A stretch of DNA of 64,000 nt from Deltaproteobacteria bacterium (GCA_026388415.1 JAPLJV010000012.1:1-64000); one strand, 5' to 3'. Counted from the first letter of the stretch, positions 23,560-36,113 are shown. The notes: generated by a model from the sequence alone, not told the origin. Program-made: numbers and translations.

Positions 23560-24594
23560 TTAGCTCGGCAATATATAGCCGTCATCTTGAAATAGTTTCA
23601 GGCATGCATCCGCAACATCTCTATCATAGAGGATGCCCTTATCCTTGGCAATTTCACTCAGCGCCACGTCAATCCCAAGGGCAGGACGGTAGGGCCGGTG
23701 CGAAGCGATCGCCTCCACCACATCGGCCACTGCAATAATCCGGGATTCCAAGAGAATGTCATCTCCCCTGAGCCCACGCGGATATCCGGAACCATTCATC
23801 TTCTCGTGATGCTCCAGCACCATCCGTGCAACCGGCCAGGGGAAATCGATGTCTTTCAAAATGTCATATCCGGACTGGGAGTGAACTTTGATCAGGCTGA
23901 ATTCAATCTTAGATAAAGTTGTGGGTTTGCTGAGGATCTCTGCGGGAACGGATATCTTGCCGATATCATGAATAGTGCCTGCCGTCCGGATGCCGTCAAT
24001 CTGATCACTTCTGAGGCCAATCTTCGCCGCAATAGAGCGGGCAAGATCGGCTACTCTGCGTTGGTGACCGGCCGTATAGGGATCTCTGATTTCAGCAGTT
24101 ACGGCCAGGGCCTGAACAGTTGCCCCCAAAGCCTTTCGCAAACTTTGAAAACTATCATCTCGATCTTTCTCTGCCTGTTGGCGCTTATATGAAATAGCGC
24201 GTTCCCGAAGAATGCGCTTCAATCTGATAATCAGCTCTGTGGGCCGCACGGGTTTTTCGATGAAGTCATTGGCGCCGTTCTCTATCGCCTGTTCATAGGT
24301 GAAATCTTCATAGTAGCCTGTAACGACTATAACTCCGGAATCATATTTTTCCTTGATAATCCTTGTCAACTCAAGCCCGCTCATATCGGGCATTTTAATG
24401 TCCGTTATAATCACATCGAAAACTTTCTCCTCCAAAGCCCGCAAGGCCTCTCCGGCGCTATTACAATAGATACAATCGAATCCGGTGCATTTGCTTATGA
24501 AATTCATAAGCATTTCCCCGAGCGACCTGTCGTCATCTACGATCAAAACATGAGCAGGATATAATTCGCTTTCATTTATGCTGAGTTTGTTCAT
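23560..24594 (-). CDS. Response regulator with HD-GYP cyclic di-GMP phosphodiesterase domain
   Basis: A 344-residue protein. The receiver domain at residues 12-130 includes LIVDDDRSLGEML, the phosphoacceptor in DVIITDIKMPDMSG and the Lys in NDFIEKPVRP. A linker helix is followed by an HD-GYP domain with YTAGHQRRVADLARSIA, HDIGKISVPAEILSKP, HSQSGYDIL and HHEKMNGSGYPRGL. HD-GYP proteins hydrolyse cyclic di-GMP. It begins 84 bases after the radical SAM maturase and may belong to the same transcript. No cognate kinase is adjacent. Confidence 0.95.
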   Translation of the reverse strand: MNKLSINESELYPAHVLIVDDDRSLGEMLMNFISKCTGFDCIYCNSAGEALRALEEKVFDVIITDIKMPDMSGLELTRIIKEKYDSGVIVVTGYYEDFTYEQAIENGANDFIEKPVRPTELIIRLKRILRERAISYKRQQAEKDRDDSFQSLRKALGATVQALAVTAEIRDPYTAGHQRRVADLARSIAAKIGLRSDQIDGIRTAGTIHDIGKISVPAEILSKPTTLSKIEFSLIKVHSQSGYDILKDIDFPWPVARMVLEHHEKMNGSGYPRGLRGDDILLESRIIAVADVVEAIASHRPYRPALGIDVALSEIAKDKGILYDRDVADACLKLFQDDGYILPS

Positions 24595-24677: not shown

Positions 24678-25982
24678 TTATTTCTGCAACCGGTACCGGA
24701 TATCCTGCTTCAGCAGCGTCTCCAGAGAGGCATCAAAATATTCTTTTTTACAATCGAGTTTGTCGATGTTTCCGTCCCGAACATAGGTCATATACCGGCA
24801 ACCGCCGAAACAAAGGGGCAAATACACGCAGGCGGCGCATTCCGGGTTTTTATAAATGCCCAGCTTAAGAGCTGCGTAATAATCACTGACTCCTGTTTCC
24901 AGATTTCCCGCGGCAAAATCTTTTTTACCGATAAAGGCCGGGCACTTATAGATAACCCCGTCATAATTGACCACATAAGCATCCGTGGTTTCGATCATGC
25001 AGGCCAGAGGGGTCGGCTTGGGCGTATGGTACCCCCGCTTGAGAATCTCTTCCCGCAAGAAGGCTCCCGCTTTTAGCAGCCAGGGTTCTTTAATGGAAAC
25101 ACAGCCGCTGGTATATTCGATGGGCGACATGCCGTCTTGCGGCCGGTTGACAACGGCGTCAAATTTCACATAGGCAATTTTATCCGGCGTAAGTCCTTCT
25201 GCCTCCAGATAATCGAGAAGCAGTACGAACCTTTCATAATTATGTTCCGTAAAATTTCCACCGATGCCGACCTTCACCAAGTCACAGGTAGCTTTAATAT
25301 TCCTGATAATGGCGTCAAAACTGCCTGCGCCGGACTTAAAAGGACGCTGGGCGTTGTGAATTTCCGCCGGTCCATCTAGGGTGATCTTGACGCTTTTCAG
25401 GCCCAGGGGAACCAGTATGCCGGCCGCCTTTCTGGTAAAGAGCGATCCGTTGGTGACCAGCGTAAAAGAATACACCGCACCCCGGCTGGCGGCAAAAGAT
25501 CTCGCTGCTTGAGAAATATATTGAATAAGATCAAGGCTGAGAAGGGGTTCTCCGCCGTAAAAATCAATGAGTAGCGTATCCTGATTATCTCTGAAATTGT
25601 CTTTGATAAAGGCAAGTAAGCGATCCGCCGTGGCCTCGGATAGGTATAGGTTTCCCTTGAGGCCTTCTTCAAAACAGTAGGGGCAGGCAAAATTGCAATC
25701 CAGGTTCAGGACGGCAATAATGTTTAACCCCCTATTGTGGGGATTCCGCTCATCCAAAAAACCGAGCATGACTCGTTTTTCCGCATCTCTATCCGCCACG
25801 ACCATGCCTAATGATGCTAACTTGGCCTCAGCGGCGGGGGAAAGTGTTCCTCTCTCCATGGATTGATATGTTTCTCGATCCAGCAGAATTGCGGATGCTT
25901 TTTTGGTAGAAAAGACCAGGAGCTGACCGGGGTTATCCGGGTAGGGATATGTCTTCAGATAATAGGAGGGCTGCATATTCAT
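24678..25982 (-). CDS. Radical SAM/SPASM peptide maturase (geopeptide type)
   Basis: A 434-residue protein. An N-terminal ~85-residue region resembles a peptide-recognition domain (YYLKTYPYPDNPGQLLVFST). The radical SAM core has C96-C100-C103 in LDCNFACPYCFEEG and LLIDFYGGEPLLS. A Cys-rich SPASM C-terminus (YKCPAFIG, NPECAACVYLPLCFGGC, DKLDCKKEYFD) would hold auxiliary Fe-S clusters. This architecture modifies ribosomal peptides, commonly forming thioether or C-C crosslinks. The expected substrate is the 42-residue precursor at 26134-26262, whose gene immediately precedes it with a hairpin between. The resemblance to the Geobacter geopeptide maturases is from memory of the family. Confidence 0.88.
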   Translation of the reverse strand: MNMQPSYYLKTYPYPDNPGQLLVFSTKKASAILLDRETYQSMERGTLSPAAEAKLASLGMVVADRDAEKRVMLGFLDERNPHNRGLNIIAVLNLDCNFACPYCFEEGLKGNLYLSEATADRLLAFIKDNFRDNQDTLLIDFYGGEPLLSLDLIQYISQAARSFAASRGAVYSFTLVTNGSLFTRKAAGILVPLGLKSVKITLDGPAEIHNAQRPFKSGAGSFDAIIRNIKATCDLVKVGIGGNFTEHNYERFVLLLDYLEAEGLTPDKIAYVKFDAVVNRPQDGMSPIEYTSGCVSIKEPWLLKAGAFLREEILKRGYHTPKPTPLACMIETTDAYVVNYDGVIYKCPAFIGKKDFAAGNLETGVSDYYAALKLGIYKNPECAACVYLPLCFGGCRYMTYVRDGNIDKLDCKKEYFDASLETLLKQDIRYRLQK

Positions 25983-26093
25983 TAAGAAAGGTTACATACC
26001 CGCATCAGCCTATAATACCCCGCCGCAAGAGGACGTATCCGCTCACGCACACTATACGCCACACAGGGCGGAGAGTAAAACCCCGGATGATTG

Positions 26094-26132
26094 AAAAAAG
26101 GGGCGCTTGATAGGCAGTTGCGCCCCTTTTTC
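26094..26132 (-). terminator. Intercistronic terminator/attenuator between precursor and maturase
   Basis: A perfect 12-bp stem, AAAAAGGGGCGC (26095-26106) with GCGCCCCTTTTT (26120-26131), encloses a 13-base loop. It starts right after the precursor stop codon. With U-runs available on both strands, it probably stops most transcripts so that more precursor than maturase is made, the common design in peptide operons. Confidence 0.8.
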
Positions 26133-26133
26133 C

Positions 26134-26262
26134 TTAATTCCCTCTATACGGCATGAATATCGACCAACAACATACCGACAGTGGCCCTATCAATGCCTCC
26201 ATGTCGATCCCCTCATCGAGAACAATAATTTCCTGCTTGGTCTCTTTTTTTTCCTCTTTCAT
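26134..26262 (-). CDS. Candidate modified-peptide precursor (geopeptide-like), 42 residues
   Basis: An open frame too short for ordinary gene callers. ATG 26262 is preceded by GGGAGGG with 4-5 bases spacing. The leader MKEEKKETKQEIIVLDEGID is highly charged. The following MEALIGPLSVCCWSIFMPYR and final GN form a hydrophobic core with a Cys-Cys-Trp pair and aromatic residues. A charged leader, a short Cys/aromatic core, a terminator after the stop and a SPASM radical SAM enzyme as next gene together are diagnostic of a ribosomally made, post-translationally modified peptide. The family name follows my memory of Geobacter precursors with a similar CCW core. The modification itself is not predictable. 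Confidence 0.82.
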   Translation of the reverse strand: MKEEKKETKQEIIVLDEGIDMEALIGPLSVCCWSIFMPYRGN

Positions 26263-26385
26263 TTGTCCCTCCCGTTATAAGTGGTTAAGAGGCTGCCATG
26301 CCAAAATAGAAGTTATTCTGTCACGGCAAGTCCGATCCAATGTATAATTATGTACTCTTAGTAATTTACAGCATAAAAGGCAAGC

Positions 26386-28338
26386 TTAAAAGGTGGTTTT
26401 TATTCCTGCCTCGACCCAGCGTCCCGGATTCTTACTATCGGCCAGGGTATACTGATCGCCGTCAAAAATGTTGTGGGCCGTCAAAAAGAGTTGGGCGGCA
26501 AATTGCCGGGTATCTATAATCTTTCTCGCCAGATTCAGGTCCCAGATAAAGTCGCCATAATCGGCCTGAAAAGCCCCATCCAAGTCCCACCAGATATAGT
26601 GCCCGAACAACTGGGCCTGCCAGGATTTCCGGTCGTCATATTTCACCCCGAGGTTATAGGCGTACCTGCCTCGGGATTCTGTTTCACTGTCAGACTTGAT
26701 CGCGACATAGGCGAACCCCGCGATCGCGGAGACGTTATGCCAGGGCAGCGTTTCCGCTTCCAGTTCCAGACCCTGTCGCCGGCTGTTGCCTTTATTGACG
26801 ATCAGATCATTGTTGGTAGGCGGTCCGGCGGCGCCCGCTTCCCTCATCAGTTGATTATCCAGCTTGTGATAAAAGATGGTGCCCTTTATCCAGAGATAGT
26901 GGGTTATGGCGGATTCCAGGCCGGCCTGATAGGACCAGACGCTTTCATGCTGAAGGGCTGGGTTGGGCTCCAGAAACAAGCCGCCGGATGAAGTCGCCGA
27001 TAGCGGCGGCAGCGTGAAGCCTCTGGCTACAGACGCCCGGGCCAGGGAATTTTCTCCCAGTTTGTAGGTAACACCCAGGCTCGGACTCACAAAGGAGCCG
27101 ATAATGCTGTTGTAATCATACCGGATGCCCGGGGTTATGGTCCACCGGTCCAGGGCGATGGTGTCGTTGGCATAGAGGGCCCATTTGGTTATGGCCGGCT
27201 GGACAGCCGATGTTGCCGGAAGACCGAAGGATTGCAGAGTTGGCCCAGCCTGCAGCGTTTGATCAAGTGTCCCCCGGTCCGCATCAATCCCCAGCACGGC
27301 CGTGTGCAACCCCTTGGTCCACACCAGTTTACCCCTTGCCCCCGTGGTTCGCTCGTCGGCTGTATTCTCTAATAAAAACTGCGGCGTAGGGGATAAAATT
27401 CCCAGTCCCAATGTATCCGTGCTCAGACTGGTTTTCTGTTCCACCGTGTGCACCGAGAGGCTCAGGTCGAGATCCGGGGTCAGTGAGGCCCTAATCGTGG
27501 CAGCCAGGAAAGAGGAACGGGCATCCGATGACGTTGTTGTATCGCCGCTGGGAACATCACCAAAGTGGTTTTTCGGCTTGCTTATGCCCATGGTCAAGCC
27601 AAGGTCAATGCCCTTCGCCACGGGGATGCTGAACTTGGAAAAATAACTTTCGGAAGCAAATCCCTTGGAGGATTTCAGACCATCCGACTCCTGGCGACCG
27701 GCAAAGAGATAATACCCCACCGGCCCGGCCAGGCCGGAGACCTGGGCGCTGTAATCCTGGGTATTCCCCTTACCGTAGGAAGCTTTTACCATGCCGGTAG
27801 GTTTCTCCGTTGTTCCGGCGGACTTGGTCAGGATATTGATTACGCCGCCCAGGGAAGACCCCCAGGCCGACGACGCCGGTCCTTTAATGATCTCGATGCG
27901 CTCGATGATGCCGACGGGGATTGAATTGGTCTCGGCGCTGCCTTCGGACAGGAAATTCCAGGGGATGCCGTCAACGAGCACCAGGACGTGCCGTTGTTCG
28001 GAACCCTGAATACTAATCAGAGAATTTGCGCCGAAATCCTGGTTGAAATTGACGAAAAGGCCCGGTACCCGGTTCAATACCTCGGCCACGGTATGGGCAT
28101 TCATCGCCTCGATGTCCTGGGCCCTGATCACGGTGACATTTTCCGCCACCTGGGAAACAGGTTTCGGATTTCTGGTGGCCGAGATCACCAGATCTTTTTC
28201 CTGATAAAAGAGGCGGAGGGTTTGCATCTCCTCCTGGGACTGGGCGGATGCGGTACGGCAAAAACCGATCCCCGTCAGAAAAAAAGCGGTTAAGAAAATA
28301 CCGGTAGTTAATAAGCGACGCTGCACTATATTCCCCAT
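26386..28338 (-). CDS. TonB-dependent outer-membrane receptor
   Basis: I place the start at ATG 28338, which gives a clear signal peptide (RRLLTTGIFLTAFFLTGIGF, cleavage near ASAQ) and 650 residues; the frame is open to 28416 and would add 26 residues. The plug domain follows (ISATRNPKPVSQVAENVTVI, AEVLNRVPGLFVNFNQDFG, IEIIKGPASSAWGSSLGGVI), then the beta-barrel ending in a C-terminal aromatic Phe (AGIKTTF). Substrate class is unclear; the barrel resembles vitamin B12/colicin-type receptors. It is upstream of, and in the same direction as, the peptide precursor and maturase, so it may take part in export or uptake of that product, which is inference. Confidence 0.92.
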   Translation of the reverse strand: MGNIVQRRLLTTGIFLTAFFLTGIGFCRTASAQSQEEMQTLRLFYQEKDLVISATRNPKPVSQVAENVTVIRAQDIEAMNAHTVAEVLNRVPGLFVNFNQDFGANSLISIQGSEQRHVLVLVDGIPWNFLSEGSAETNSIPVGIIERIEIIKGPASSAWGSSLGGVINILTKSAGTTEKPTGMVKASYGKGNTQDYSAQVSGLAGPVGYYLFAGRQESDGLKSSKGFASESYFSKFSIPVAKGIDLGLTMGISKPKNHFGDVPSGDTTTSSDARSSFLAATIRASLTPDLDLSLSVHTVEQKTSLSTDTLGLGILSPTPQFLLENTADERTTGARGKLVWTKGLHTAVLGIDADRGTLDQTLQAGPTLQSFGLPATSAVQPAITKWALYANDTIALDRWTITPGIRYDYNSIIGSFVSPSLGVTYKLGENSLARASVARGFTLPPLSATSSGGLFLEPNPALQHESVWSYQAGLESAITHYLWIKGTIFYHKLDNQLMREAGAAGPPTNNDLIVNKGNSRRQGLELEAETLPWHNVSAIAGFAYVAIKSDSETESRGRYAYNLGVKYDDRKSWQAQLFGHYIWWDLDGAFQADYGDFIWDLNLARKIIDTRQFAAQLFLTAHNIFDGDQYTLADSKNPGRWVEAGIKTTF

Positions 28339-28470: not shown

Positions 28471-29493
28471 GTGGGAAAAAGGATCCTAACCCCGATAAAC
28501 GGGATAAGTGCGTTAACGCATTTGCTTTCTGCTCGAAAGCAAATGCTAACTACTAATAAGTTTACAAAATTATTTTTTGCCGGAAAAACGCAAAAAATAA
28601 TTTCTAACTTACTAATACTTCTGTTGCTTTTAGCATCCTTAATCGCGTCGGCAGAAGCCGGACAGAAGGTCCTGGCTATCCAGAGCGTCCCGGTTGCGCC
28701 CTATGAGCAAGCCATTAAGGGATTTGAGCATGTTTACGGCTCAGCGGTCGAACGGCTTCTTATCTCCGATTTGAAAGAAATAGATGTTCTTAAGAAGATT
28801 CGTGAGATCAGGCCGGATATGCTGCTTGCCGTGGGCAGGGATGCCCTGTTAAGTGTCAAACACCTTACAACCATACCGGTTATCTATTGTATGGTTTTGA
28901 ATCCCCGCTCCCTCCTTTCCGATGAGAAAAATATCAGCGGCGTCAGCATGAATCTGCCGCCGGAGAAACAGTTGAGCGAGCTTTTAAAGATGCTTCCAGC
29001 CGCACGTGACATTGGCCTCCTCTATGATCCTGATCAAACCGGCATTTTCGTTCAGGGGGTGCGCAATGCCGCCGTCAGGATGAACGTCAATTTGACGGCA
29101 ACGGCGGTGCACCGTTCCGGGGACGTCCCAGCGCTCCTCAATACGATGAAAGGCAAGGCAAACGTCTTTTGGATGCTTCCGGACATCACAGTGATAACTC
29201 CGGAAACACTTAAATCCATACTTCTCTTATCCCTGGAAAATAAAATGCCGATCCTCACATTTTCAGAAAAATACCTGGAACTCGGGGCCATGCTCTCTAT
29301 CGGGATCGATCCCTTCGATGTGGGGTCCCAAGCGGGAGAGATGGCGCAAAAGATCTTTTCAGGCGGCAATTTTATGGAACCCCAGCATGTTGATGCCCGC
29401 AAGGCATCGCTGTCTATTAATGTAGGCATAGCCAGGAAATTCGGCATTGTTCTTGATCAACAAGTTATCAGAGACGTCAAGATCATCCGGTGA
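28471..29493 (+). CDS. ABC-type substrate-binding protein (COG2984 family)
   Basis: The frame opens at GTG 28471 after AAGGA and spans 340 residues; an internal ATG at 28543 leaves a tidier signal peptide. The hydrophobic span ISNLLILLLLLASLIASAEA is followed by the mature domain: VLAIQSVPVAPYEQAIKGFE, PDMLLAVGRDALLSVKHLTTIP and GLLYDPDQTGIFVQGVRNAA. Periplasmic proteins of this family bind aromatic amino acids or unknown ligands for ABC importers. No permease or ATPase is adjacent. A histidine kinase gene begins 10 bases downstream, so this protein probably acts as the ligand sensor for the kinase. Two repeat hairpins overlap the start of the reading frame. Confidence 0.82.
   Translation: MGKRILTPINGISALTHLLSARKQMLTTNKFTKLFFAGKTQKIISNLLILLLLLASLIASAEAGQKVLAIQSVPVAPYEQAIKGFEHVYGSAVERLLISDLKEIDVLKKIREIRPDMLLAVGRDALLSVKHLTTIPVIYCMVLNPRSLLSDEKNISGVSMNLPPEKQLSELLKMLPAARDIGLLYDPDQTGIFVQGVRNAAVRMNVNLTATAVHRSGDVPALLNTMKGKANVFWMLPDITVITPETLKSILLLSLENKMPILTFSEKYLELGAMLSIGIDPFDVGSQAGEMAQKIFSGGNFMEPQHVDARKASLSINVGIARKFGIVLDQQVIRDVKIIR
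28488..28615. repeat. Dispersed hairpin repeats, copies 2 and 3 in tandem
   Basis: Copy 2 begins AACCCCGATAAACGGG at 28488 and has a perfect 12-bp stem, GCATTTGCTTTC (28518-28529) with GAAAGCAAATGC (28535-28546), then TAACTACTAATAAG. Copy 3 has a perfect 14-bp stem, AAATTATTTTTTGC (28567-28580) with GCAAAAAATAATTT (28590-28603), then CTAACTTACTAA. The stems have unrelated sequence but each is exactly self-complementary. Both lie inside the predicted N-terminus of the substrate-binding protein frame. Confidence 0.75.
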
Positions 29494-29503
29494 GGTATAT
29501 TAC

Positions 29504-31072
29504 ATGCGGTTTAAGTTTATGAAGATCTTCAAGAAAAAATTTGGCGTTAAAATTTTCGTGATTTTTTCCTTATTCATGTTTGTCATCACATTCTCTTTTG
29601 CTGCCTTCTTTTATTATCATCAGAGTAAGTCGTTGACCGATGGGCTTGTACAAAACAACCTCTTGCTTACCGGCATCCTGGCCTACAATTCAAAAATCGG
29701 CGTGTTTTCTGAAAATGAAGAACTGCTCAAAACCCCTGTGGATGGGATATTTCAGCAGGAGGAGATCGTGGAAATATCCATCTACAATCAGCAAGGGCGT
29801 CTGCTCTTGAGGCGGGAAAGGTCCGGGACAGAGGCTGGGAAAAAACAGGCGCAAGCGGTGGAAAACGGTGGACGAGTTGAAGCCGGGATATTACTTAAGG
29901 CATCTAAGGCACCTTCCCCCTTTTATCTTGCCGGCGGGGATAAAATGGAATTCTGGTCGCCTGTCGTCGCAAGTTCAGGGTATAAGACCGCCGAATCCTT
30001 GTTTATAGATAAAGAATCGCTGGCAGGCGAGAAACGTATTATCGGATTTGTCCGGATAACTGTGGGTAAGGCGGCCCTTAATAAAAAGCTTGGCGCCCTT
30101 TTAGTGAAAAGCTCCTTGATCGGCATTGTCTTTTCGTTTGCCGGTTTTGGAATTATCTATTTCCTGGCGAAACGGATAGTGATTCCGCTTAACAGATTGA
30201 TAGAAAAAGTGCAAATCGTGGGAAAAGGAAACTTTGGTGAAAGGGTCTCTGTCGAGATGGAGGATGAAATCGGCCAGTTGGCCATGGCCTTTAATCAAAT
30301 GTCTGAATCCTTGCAGAGACGGGAGGAGGAAAAAAGGCGTCTTGAAGAACAGCTCAGGCATTCACAAAGGATGGAAGCGATCGGTACGCTTGCTGGAGGC
30401 ATCGCCCACGACTTTAATAATATCATCGGAATTATTATGGGGTATGCGCAGTCGGGACTGCTGACTAATCCCGGGAAGACCGAGATGGACCATCATTTAA
30501 AAGAGATTTTCCAGGCCAGCAACCGCGCCAAAGACCTGGTAAAGCAGATCCTCACCTTCAGTCGTCAGGGCAAACAGGAACGAAACCCTATCCTGATCAG
30601 ACCTATTGTCGAAGAAGCCCTGAAAATGGTGCGCACGGCATTGCCGGACACCATCGAGATACGCCCTGACTTCAAATCCGGTCTGTCCCCTGTTTTGTCC
30701 GATCCATCGCAGATCCATCAAGTGCTGATGAACCTGTGCACCAACGCAGGTCATGCCATGCAAGACAGCGGGGGGGTGTTGGAGGTGAAGCTGGACGAAT
30801 GGGAGATCAATGCCGGCGATCCTGACCTGTCTATCGATATGAAGCCCGGACGATACCAGGCACTGACCATGAGCGACACTGGCCATGGCATGGATGCTTC
30901 CGTCAAGGAACGGATTTTTGATCCCTTTTTTACAACAAAAGGGCCGGGGAAGGGAACCGGCATGGGGCTGTCGGTCGTCCATGGAATCGTAAAAACCCAT
31001 GGCGGCAACATTACCTGCCACAGCGAACCGGGAAAAGGGACGACCTTTAAAGTATTTTTCCCCACGATTTAA
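29504..31072 (+). CDS. Membrane sensor histidine kinase
   Basis: A 522-residue protein from ATG 29504 (GAGGT upstream; an earlier in-frame ATG overlaps the previous gene). It has one N-terminal helix (VKIFVIFSLFMFVITFSFAA), a periplasmic sensor region of about 150 residues and a second helix near 205-222. A HAMP linker follows (KRIVIPLNRLIEKVQIVGKG, FGERVSVEMEDEIGQLAMAF). The DHp has the phospho-acceptor in GGIAHDFNNIIGIIMGYAQS at about residue 303, and the ATPase has N (NLCTNAGHAMQD), G1 (DTGHGMD) and G2 (GTGMGLSVVHGIVK) boxes. No response regulator is next to it. It is paired with the binding protein upstream and a hairpin repeat sits right after its stop. Confidence 0.94.
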   Translation: MRFKFMKIFKKKFGVKIFVIFSLFMFVITFSFAAFFYYHQSKSLTDGLVQNNLLLTGILAYNSKIGVFSENEELLKTPVDGIFQQEEIVEISIYNQQGRLLLRRERSGTEAGKKQAQAVENGGRVEAGILLKASKAPSPFYLAGGDKMEFWSPVVASSGYKTAESLFIDKESLAGEKRIIGFVRITVGKAALNKKLGALLVKSSLIGIVFSFAGFGIIYFLAKRIVIPLNRLIEKVQIVGKGNFGERVSVEMEDEIGQLAMAFNQMSESLQRREEEKRRLEEQLRHSQRMEAIGTLAGGIAHDFNNIIGIIMGYAQSGLLTNPGKTEMDHHLKEIFQASNRAKDLVKQILTFSRQGKQERNPILIRPIVEEALKMVRTALPDTIEIRPDFKSGLSPVLSDPSQIHQVLMNLCTNAGHAMQDSGGVLEVKLDEWEINAGDPDLSIDMKPGRYQALTMSDTGHGMDASVKERIFDPFFTTKGPGKGTGMGLSVVHGIVKTHGGNITCHSEPGKGTTFKVFFPTI

Positions 31073-32951: not shown

Positions 32952-35900
32952 ATGTGTTTAGGGGTAGCCGTAGCCATGGTAACGGAACGATTGCCGGCTA
33001 AGGCTGGAAGCGAACTATTTATCGTTGACAACAGCGATAAGGACTGGAAGGTCCGGAACTACTTGGAACAGTGGGCCGACCTGTCCGTCTCTTTCGATAT
33101 TGCCACCGGCTACTTTGAGATCGGCGCCCTGCTCGCCCTGGACGGCCAATGGCAGAAGCTCGAAAAGCTGCGCATCCTCATGGGTGATGAAGTTTCACGG
33201 CGGACAAAGCAAGCCCTGATGGCCGGCGTCCAAACAGCCGGGACGATCCTCGACGCCAGTATTGAGAAGGAAAAGGAACGCGACGATTTTCTGTCAGGTG
33301 TGCCTCCCATTGTTGATGCCCTCCGGAAGCGGCAGATCGAATGCCGTATCTATACCAAAGAAAAATTTCACGCCAAAGCCTATATCACCCATGCGAAGCA
33401 CGCCGTCGTCGGTTCGGCGGCCCTCGTTGGTTCCAGCAACTTCACCCATCCCGGACTGACGGACAACGTGGAGCTGAACATCCAGGTGCGGCGGGAGGTT
33501 GAGTTGCTTCAGGAGTGGTATGACCGGCACTGGAACGAAGCCCATGAAATAACGGAAGAAATCCTCCGGATTATCGAGCGTCACACAAGGGAATACAGCC
33601 CGTTCGAGATCTATGCCAAGGCCCTGCAGGAATTTTTCCGCGCTCATGAGATGACGACGGGCGAATGGGAAAATGGCACTTCCCGCATGTATCCCGTCCT
33701 CGACCAATATCAAAAGGAAGGCTACCAATCCCTGATGAAAATCTCCGGCCAGCACGGCGGCGCCTTTCTATGCGACGGCGTCGGTTTGGGGAAGACCTTT
33801 ATCGGCCTGATGGTCATCGAGCGGCTTGTCGTTTACGAGCGGAAACGGGTTATGCTGCTCGTGCCGAAGGCGGCGCGCAAGCCCGTCTGGGAGAGCGCCA
33901 TCCGTCGCTACCTGCCCCATCTTGGCGGCGGGGATTTTAGCAATCTGGCGATCTACAACCATACCGATCTGCTCCGTGCGGGTGAATTTCCGGCCCGTCT
34001 CGAACGCATCAAGGAGATGGCCGATGCCATAGTCATTGACGAAGCCCATCACTTTCGCAATCCGGGTGTCAAAGGGGAAAAATCAGGCAGGATCACCCGT
34101 TATCGCCACCTGTACGATATTGCAGATGGCAAAAGCATGTTTCTGCTGACGGCCACGCCCATAAACAACCGCCTCCTTGACCTCCAGCACATGATCGAAC
34201 TATTTACCCGCCTCAAACCCGATTTTTTTAAATCTACCCTGGGAATCCACTCCCTCGCCGGCCACTTCCGCAAGATGGAAAAAGATCTGGAACAGATCGT
34301 TTTTGGGCAAGCGGCAGAGAATGACGGCATGGAAACCAATGCCGTGGAAGCGGAGAGGGTTCTGCTGAACGACAATCTATTCCGAGCGCTCGTTGTGCAA
34401 CGCAGCCGTGCCTACGTGAAGGCCAGCCAGCTCCAGCAAGGCGGCTATGCAGCCCTATTCCCCCGGCGGGGAGATCCCCAGGTTGCTCACTACTCCATCA
34501 AGAAGACGTACGGCCGGCTCCTGTCCATGCTGGAAGAGGCTTTCTCCAGGGAGAAACCTCTGTTTTCACTGGCGATGTACTATCCCCTGGCCTATTACAA
34601 AGGCCCCGACACCACGATTGATCCCCTGAAGGCAGGGCGGCAGCGGGAAGTGGTGGGACTGATCAGGACTCTGTTCCTCAAGCGCTTTGAGAGTTCCGTC
34701 TATGCTTTCAATCTATCATGCAACGCCCTGCTGGTTAAGCTCCTGGCCTTCGCCACGAAGAACAGCAAAACCTCCTCGGAATCCAACCGTCTGGACCGCT
34801 GGAAGGCCCAGCATGGGGATTCTATCCGTCATGTAAGCGAACAACGGAATGACTTCTTCGGAGGGGATCGGGAGGAACTGGGCGAAGATGAACTCGTCAC
34901 CGAGGAGATGCTGGAGGACGTGGAAGAGCTCAACCGGGATGAATACCGCGTGGAAGAGATCCTGACCGAGATTTTTCTCGACATGGATCAGCTCACCGAA
35001 TTTATTAAAGAACTTGAGAAATTCAAGCCCTCTCACGATGACAAGCTCCTCGCCCTGATTCGCCTGCTTAAAAACGATGCCGTCCTCAAGAAACATAAGG
35101 TCATGATCTTCACGGAGTATCTGTCCACGGCGCGCTATCTGAAGAAAGAGCTCCTGGAAGCCGGAATAGAGGGCATTGACGAGGTGGACAGCGCCACGTC
35201 GCGTGATCGGGGCGAGATCATTCGGCAATTCGCGCCCTATTACAATGATGCCTCGTCTGCCACGCTAAAAGAGGAAAGCCTCACTGAATCCAGAGTTCTC
35301 ATCGCCACGGATGTGCTTTCCGAAGGCCTGAACCTGCAGGATGCAACGCGCCTGATCAATTACGATATTCACTGGAACCCGGTCCGCCTCATGCAGCGCA
35401 TCGGCCGTGTTGATCGGCGGCTGAACCCGGAGATCGAAGAAAAAATTCTGACCGACCACCCCGACCAGAAAATGATCCGGGGCGCCGTGGCGTACTGGAA
35501 CTTCCTGCCGCCTGATGAACTGAATATCCTGCTGAGCCTGTACAGCAGGGTCACCCACAAGACATTGCGGATATCCAAGACCTTCGGCATCGAAGGCAAG
35601 AAGCTTCTAACCCCGGAAGACGATTACGATGCCCTGAAGGATTTCAATCATGCCTATGAAGGAACGACATCCATTCTCGAGGGTATGCACCTCGAATACC
35701 AGCAACTCCTGAAGGACTACCCCGATCTCGCGGCGCGCCTGGCGCTTCTGCCCGGCCGGGTCTTCAGCGGCAAGGCCCACCCCCAAACCGATGCCAGAGC
35801 GGTCTTTTTCTGCTGGGCGCTTCCCGCCCTGAGCAAGAAACCGGATGGATCGGAGACCTGGAGCGAAGAAAACGGCACAACGGGCTGGTACCTCTACGAT

Positions 35901-36113
35901 CTCATCGGAGAGCGCATCATTTCGGAGCCGGCGGACATCATTGGCCTGATCCGCAGCAAGCCGGAAACACCGCGTAAGCGGGCAATACCGGACAAAACTC
36001 TCGCTGAAATAAGAACATCCGTGGAAAAGCACATCAAGAATACCTACTTCAAGCGGGTGCAGGCCCCTATCGGCGTGAAGGCCATCCTCAAGGCCTGGAT
36101 GGAGCTGGGATGA
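32952..36113 (+). CDS. PLD-nuclease/SNF2 helicase of a defence system
   Basis: A protein of up to 1053 residues; start 32952 or 32976 (MVTERLPAKAG). N-terminal residues 30-190 form a phospholipase-D-like nuclease with a single HxK-type motif (KFHAKAYITHAKHAVV, then GSSNFTHPGL), so it would dimerise to form one active site. Residues about 250-460 are a helicase first half: Walker A GVGLGKTFIGLMVIERL, DEAH box VIDEAHHFRNP, motif III LLTATPINNRLLDLQ. Residues about 690-860 carry the second half with ATDVLSEGLNLQDATRLINY and motif VI QRIGRVDRR. It plausibly translocates on DNA and cleaves it, with the methylase downstream marking self DNA. Cleavage activity is not proven. No SD is strong at 32952. 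Confidence 0.9.
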   Translation: MCLGVAVAMVTERLPAKAGSELFIVDNSDKDWKVRNYLEQWADLSVSFDIATGYFEIGALLALDGQWQKLEKLRILMGDEVSRRTKQALMAGVQTAGTILDASIEKEKERDDFLSGVPPIVDALRKRQIECRIYTKEKFHAKAYITHAKHAVVGSAALVGSSNFTHPGLTDNVELNIQVRREVELLQEWYDRHWNEAHEITEEILRIIERHTREYSPFEIYAKALQEFFRAHEMTTGEWENGTSRMYPVLDQYQKEGYQSLMKISGQHGGAFLCDGVGLGKTFIGLMVIERLVVYERKRVMLLVPKAARKPVWESAIRRYLPHLGGGDFSNLAIYNHTDLLRAGEFPARLERIKEMADAIVIDEAHHFRNPGVKGEKSGRITRYRHLYDIADGKSMFLLTATPINNRLLDLQHMIELFTRLKPDFFKSTLGIHSLAGHFRKMEKDLEQIVFGQAAENDGMETNAVEAERVLLNDNLFRALVVQRSRAYVKASQLQQGGYAALFPRRGDPQVAHYSIKKTYGRLLSMLEEAFSREKPLFSLAMYYPLAYYKGPDTTIDPLKAGRQREVVGLIRTLFLKRFESSVYAFNLSCNALLVKLLAFATKNSKTSSESNRLDRWKAQHGDSIRHVSEQRNDFFGGDREELGEDELVTEEMLEDVEELNRDEYRVEEILTEIFLDMDQLTEFIKELEKFKPSHDDKLLALIRLLKNDAVLKKHKVMIFTEYLSTARYLKKELLEAGIEGIDEVDSATSRDRGEIIRQFAPYYNDASSATLKEESLTESRVLIATDVLSEGLNLQDATRLINYDIHWNPVRLMQRIGRVDRRLNPEIEEKILTDHPDQKMIRGAVAYWNFLPPDELNILLSLYSRVTHKTLRISKTFGIEGKKLLTPEDDYDALKDFNHAYEGTTSILEGMHLEYQQLLKDYPDLAARLALLPGRVFSGKAHPQTDARAVFFCWALPALSKKPDGSETWSEENGTTGWYLYDLIGERIISEPADIIGLIRSKPETPRKRAIPDKTLAEIRTSVEKHIKNTYFKRVQAPIGVKAILKAWMELG

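Follow-up and report, generated by a model that had tools for sequence, protein, structure and literature searches.

The window, a stretch of 64,000 nucleotides of DNA from a Deltaproteobacteria bacterium, carries a geopeptide locus in which a 42-residue precursor and its radical SAM maturase are encoded beside a TonB-dependent receptor, an orphan periplasmic binding protein and a sensor histidine kinase (Table 1), and across related loci the receptor, the binding protein and, mostly, the kinase are kept together with the maturase. The reading that we favour, with a probability of roughly 0.6, is that the product is a Cys-Cys RiPP which is exported and then recaptured and sensed, acting as a metallophore-like carrier or as an autoinducer.

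Table 1. Features of the geopeptide locus; positions are counted from the first nucleotide of the window.
Feature	Position	Strand	Remarks
Response regulator with HD output domain	23560..24594	-	Pfam; possible partner of the kinase
Radical SAM/SPASM geopeptide maturase with N-terminal RRE-like fold	24678..25982	-	TIGR04280; AlphaFold2; Foldseek
GC-rich hairpin with T-rich 3' arm	26093..26133	-	Directly 3' of the precursor stop codon; folding z = -3.4
Geopeptide precursor, 42 aa	26134..26262	-	Leader ~1-29, core around CCWSIFMPYRGN; homologous precursors beside related maturases
Shine-Dalgarno GGGAGGG	26267..26273	-	Read from the sequence; 4 nt 5' of the precursor ATG
TonB-dependent receptor	26386..28338	-	Pfam plug and barrel; no N-terminal signalling domain found
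Periplasmic solute-binding protein, ABC_sub_bind (PF04392)	28471..29493	+	Start may be ATG 28543; no adjoining ABC permease
Sensor histidine kinase	29447..31072	+	HAMP, HisKA, HATPase_c (Pfam)

The maturase and the precursor of the window

A preliminary description of the interval 24678-28338 had proposed a geopeptide-like RiPP locus, and this assignment held up on the family of the maturase and on the precursors found beside nearly all of its homologues. The maturase scored 561.7 bits against TIGR04280 (cut-off 400) over positions 1-428 of the 428 in the model, with the next family at 163 bits. It contains CxxxCxxC and seven SPASM cysteines, confirming the Cys-rich SPASM domain that had been seen earlier, and 43 homologues all retain the three radical SAM cysteines as well as the seven of the SPASM domain. 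The AlphaFold2 model (pLDDT 91) has an RRE-like N-terminus of three strands and three helices, a likeness judged by secondary structure and by the match to CteB and not via an RRE model. CteB was the top match both in Foldseek (5WHY/5WGG) and in the profile search, and the window enzyme has the combination by which sactipeptide and ranthipeptide maturases are recognised, a radical SAM and SPASM enzyme with an RRE. CteB forms a Cys-Thr thioether (PMC11002830) and, because it is the nearest solved relative by sequence and by fold, a thioether would be the likeliest bond made by the window maturase. The likeness to the SCIFF/ranthipeptide maturases (CteB, 5WGG) covers the RRE-like N-terminus, the radical SAM core and the SPASM cysteines for two auxiliary clusters; however, SCIFF peptides have six cysteines in about 45 residues whereas the window peptide has two adjacent ones, and with a TIGR03974 score of 101.8 bits against 425, membership of that family was rejected. 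A paralogue of the maturase was looked for in its own genome, where only weak radical SAM matches were obtained. In three relatives the maturase ORF has approximately 260-290 extra C-terminal residues with no Pfam match (L112:3628-5793, L114:5019-7100 and L115:7001-9181), and these extensions are alike.

The uncalled 42-codon frame was present as described, with its strong ribosome site, and translates as MKEEKKETKQEIIVLDEGIDMEALIGPLSVCCWSIFMPYRGN. In a profile search it scored 13.3 bits against TIGR04229 (cut-off 30, E 0.055, model positions 3-20 of 22), and by this model alone no call would be made. The window is assigned as a geopeptide locus because of the family of the maturase and the layout of the precursor, a short frame adjoining the maturase whose VLDxG leader and CC pair are positioned as in geopeptides, and not because of the TIGR04229 score; the peptide is a divergent, below-cut-off member of the family. 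Its long hydrophobic core (CCWSIFMPYRGN) contrasts with short cores rich in Gly and Ser, for example CCSGNTARSA. In the comparison with its nearest relative (G009), the leader gave pS of 0.55 and pN of 0.13 over 22 codons, a pattern that indicates purifying selection in this pair. In other precursor pairs, too, pN was lower than pS.

The perfect 12-bp hairpin reported directly 3' of the frame was likewise borne out. The core extends to 14 pairs around a 13-nt loop, and the 61-nt region has an MFE of -23.8 kcal/mol, a stability matched by none of 200 dinucleotide shuffles. It was not listed by a simple terminator scan because the 13-nt loop is above the limit of that scan. Of 37 gaps between precursor and maturase, 28 likewise contain stable structure, mostly a GC-rich hairpin (z of approximately -2 or below against mononucleotide shuffles), and the window hairpin is a probable partial terminator or 3' stabiliser.

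The precursor family in relatives

Small ORFs were searched for in the flanks fetched around further copies of the maturase. A first search, which required the leader motif and any later Cys, gave 14 distinct geopeptide-like ORFs 5' of a maturase, all 14 with CC, and its remaining matches were longer unrelated or shadow ORFs; a second search, in which CC and a ribosome site were required, supplied most of the other precursors. CC was present in 40/40 putative precursors, a count that is partly by construction as the second search demanded it. As a control, the 300 nt upstream of each gene were compared: a small ORF having both CC and a ribosome site was present there for 31/44 maturases and for 8/314 other genes from the same neighbourhoods. 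Aligned, the precursors read [I/V]xVL[D/E]xG ... CC ... R, in which CC never varies and the leader Gly hardly does. Numbered from the first Cys as position 0, Arg occupies +9 in 25 of the 40 and Pro occupies +7 in 18. The cores were of two types, hydrophobic with P-x-R, as in the window, or short and rich in Gly, Ser and Thr. The check proposed earlier was to look for homologues beside related maturases and for a conserved C-C-W core. The layout recurs next to nearly all of the maturase homologues, but of the core only CC is kept: Trp directly follows CC in 5/40 precursors, and elsewhere the residue is variable. The proposed crosslinking of a Cys/Trp/Tyr region by the maturase was consequently unsupported, and a bond to Trp or Tyr was dropped as these residues are not conserved among the precursors. 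At E<=10, TIGR04229 recognised 16 of 38 precursor homologues, the best with an E of 3.9e-7; this 22-position model therefore misses over half of the precursors collected in relatives.

The explanation that the 42-residue frame is a chance ORF, which its score under the TIGR04229 cut-off might seem to favour, has a negligible probability and is already refuted by the comparative data, that is, the precursors of the same layout beside nearly all homologues, the conservation of the leader, the hairpin and the difference between maturases and control genes.

Two tandem precursors precede one maturase in L130 (6612-6725 and the following copy). In L132 and L135, small ORFs with a KKG leader, a single Cys and an aromatic core (MKLQVIKKGTRKDDKKTLYCAWFVST; MKLKVVKKGSKEDKKVLWCFWYLYV) lie 3' of maturases that are themselves below the cut-off, and these are possibly a sister peptide family.

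Conservation of the receptor, binding protein and kinase

In a phylum sample of 395 genomes the maturase was found above the cut-off in 31 and at E<=1e-80 in 35; in the class to which the window belongs it was present in 2 of 155 genomes, and two close relatives stem from metagenome assemblies labelled Nitrospirae. Neighbouring genes were detected by translated searches with the proteins of the window and of its relatives. The preliminary description had named a TonB receptor on the far side of the precursor from the maturase, which the Pfam plug and barrel domains confirmed, and had suggested that it may move the product; that it belongs to the system is now strongly supported, as the receptor was present at each of the 31 loci that have an above-cut-off maturase and 5 kb or more of upstream sequence, and its divergence follows that of the maturase. 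At the same 31 loci the PF04392 binding protein was also always present and a histidine kinase was found in 29, making these two genes conserved neighbours that lie outside the interval first described. With a requirement of at least 2.2 kb upstream, the receptor was found in 37 of 37 loci. Three arrangements were seen: the kinase and binding protein divergent from receptor, precursor and maturase, as in the window; receptor, binding protein and kinase divergent from precursor and maturase (e.g. L100); and all genes on one strand (e.g. L123). In the four sub-cut-off relatives there was no binding protein, and the nearest receptor, if any, was farther off.

Viewed from the binding protein, nine of the 13 proteins most similar to that of the window were near a maturase and the other four were at contig ends, whereas more distant ones also occurred without a maturase, some adjoining a TonB receptor. 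No geopeptide-like ORF was found in 19 binding-protein loci without a maturase. The twentieth (L182:890-1824) has a precursor and the receptor module by a partly matched maturase (187 bits), which is possibly truncated or decaying. Pairs of a receptor and a PF04392-type protein were repeated without a geopeptide at L170, L171, L173, L176, L177 and L180 (G184, G220 and G237).

Across 25 loci, maturase distances correlated with those of the receptor (0.64), the binding protein (0.47) and the ribosomal marker rplB (0.30), while correlations with rplB were 0.12 for the receptor and 0.08 for the binding protein. Partial correlations given rplB were again 0.64 and 0.47, and 0/1000 permutations were as high in either case, a count to be taken as a guide only since pairwise distances are not independent. 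These values indicate that receptor and binding-protein sequences diverge in step with the maturase rather than with rplB. All of the TonB receptors found in G009 (one) and in the single-contig genome G250 (two) were inside geopeptide loci, and homologues of TonB_C and ExbD are present in both; the genome of the window has three TonB receptors.

Other neighbours were less constant. The response regulator of the window also lies downstream of the maturase in G009 (L136) and is absent from most loci, and the types of kinase and response regulator differ between loci. No exporter or leader peptidase was seen at the window locus, and neither a peptidase nor an immunity gene recurred among the neighbours of the maturase loci; in a single case (L108) the downstream protein looks by eye like an M16 peptidase. 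No metal-related gene was consistently nearby, and metal efflux was rejected as a candidate, the RND pumps of L121 and L009 being non-recurrent and scoring higher with multidrug permeases than with CusA/CzcA. Rfam gave two tRNAs only between 18000 and 36000, with no riboswitch near the receptor, and no common operator was found 5' of the receptor across 13 loci. Three consecutive palindromes lie between the receptor and the binding protein (28506-28603), one with arms of 12 bp at 28518-28546, one with arms of 14 bp at 28567-28603, and a third, overlapping palindrome at 28506-28523. They extend over the start annotated for the binding-protein ORF, and palindromes of this length were absent 5' of the receptor in 12 other loci examined. 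Farther off, 32952-36113 encodes a 1053-residue ORF that appears by eye to be helicase-like with an N-terminal nuclease-like region.

Proposed export, recapture and sensing of the peptide

Because the receptor, the binding protein and mostly the kinase adjoin the maturase, the cell probably releases the peptide and afterwards recovers or senses it, and secretion followed by recapture and sensing would explain why these genes stay together. In this scheme the maturase would bind the precursor by its leader, using the RRE-like domain, and would modify the core around the Cys-Cys pair, most likely via thioether links. The leader would then be cut off and the peptide exported by functions encoded away from the window locus. 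Outside the cell the peptide would be a metallophore-like carrier or a signal, and the dedicated TonB receptor would return it, or what it has bound, to the periplasm, where the orphan binding protein would catch it and signal to the histidine kinase, which would adjust expression. LuxP-LuxQ and TorT-TorS are binding protein-kinase pairs that offer an analogy for this last step. Secretion is supported by genes of MFS type at some loci, an MFS_3-type gene in L117, L118, L124, L126 and L130 (by Pfam for L118 and L130, by BLAST clustering for the others) and, 3' of the maturase in L006, L007 and L114, an MFS gene of half length. Such exporters are found in a minority of relatives, however, and the lack of an exporter and a peptidase at the window locus is a weak point of the scheme, as are the variety of kinases and regulators and the want of a consistent metal gene.

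In a different explanation, the receptor, binding protein and kinase would serve to take up and detect some other nutrient or cofactor (a metal, a cobalamin-like compound or an aromatic), and the modified peptide, never secreted, would handle this cargo after uptake, inside the cell or in the periplasm. Two of the points in its favour also weigh against export and recapture: the model of the binding protein (m5e565c9e4d44) resembles 6HNJ (TM 0.69) and 3LFT, so that its fold is closest to those of proteins that bind one amino acid (3LFT with L-Trp) and of similar proteins (6HNJ), and not to those of known peptide binders; and receptor/binding-protein pairs are known without a geopeptide. In addition, the best NCBIfam match of the receptor is a B12 receptor, at 139.7 of 599.7 bits, far below the cut-off, and no exporter is universal. 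We nevertheless regard this explanation as unlikely, given that above-cut-off maturases never occur without the receptor where the flanks allow it to be seen, that receptor divergence follows the maturase and that some loci do have MFS exporter genes. Export and recapture could also serve signalling only, a sub-case of the favoured reading in which the secreted peptide has no cargo and, once imported, reports density or diffusion to the binding protein and kinase. The conservation of the kinase beside the binding protein, the LuxR- and NtrC-type response regulators near it in L113, L115, L120 and L103, and the diversity of the cores apart from CC are consistent with such an autoinducer, which we consider possible but doubtful, TonB-energised uptake being costly for a pure signal and an invariant CC being less suited to a specificity tag than to chemistry or the binding of a metal. 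Antibacterial activity has precedents among the thioether RiPPs of radical SAM enzymes (ruminococcin C, PMC6779426), but a peptide that entered competitors via TonB receptors, with the linked receptor as target or decoy, seems very improbable here, as it would leave the binding protein and kinase unexplained and no immunity gene recurs.

The systems most similar to the window locus also differ from it. Methanobactin operons share a small Cys-containing peptide, a TonB-dependent transporter and, in some, dedicated regulation (PMC3621798), but have MbnB/MbnC in place of a radical SAM enzyme and a FecIR-like sigma/anti-sigma pair in place of the kinase and binding protein; no MbnB (MNIO) or MbnC domain was present in the genes tested around the precursor, and membership was rejected. 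The Itf cluster of Bacteroides likewise links a TonB-dependent transporter to radical SAM RiPP genes (PMC11002830), but has a YcaO enzyme, an ABC transporter/C39 peptidase and another precursor, and a binding protein-kinase pair is not mentioned there. For geopeptides themselves, the NCBIfam entries as returned name no module of receptor, binding protein and kinase, and a literature search for geopeptides, TIGR04229 and TIGR04280, with subscription literature and NCBIfam comment text outside its range, found no paper or function. We believe the conserved uptake-and-sensing module and the functional hypothesis to be new, although they may be known to the authors of the NCBIfam models.

More tentatively, and with somewhat less than even confidence, geopeptides may be an unrecognised group of radical SAM peptides that are secreted, recovered by a dedicated TonB receptor and read by a binding protein and kinase, a methanobactin-like circuit with a thioether carrier across a large phylum. 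Through the tie of the maturase to a receptor, a binding protein and mostly a kinase, a specific hypothesis of uptake and sensing that can be tested is now available for an orphan RiPP, and the binding protein provides a route to the ligand by way of purified protein.
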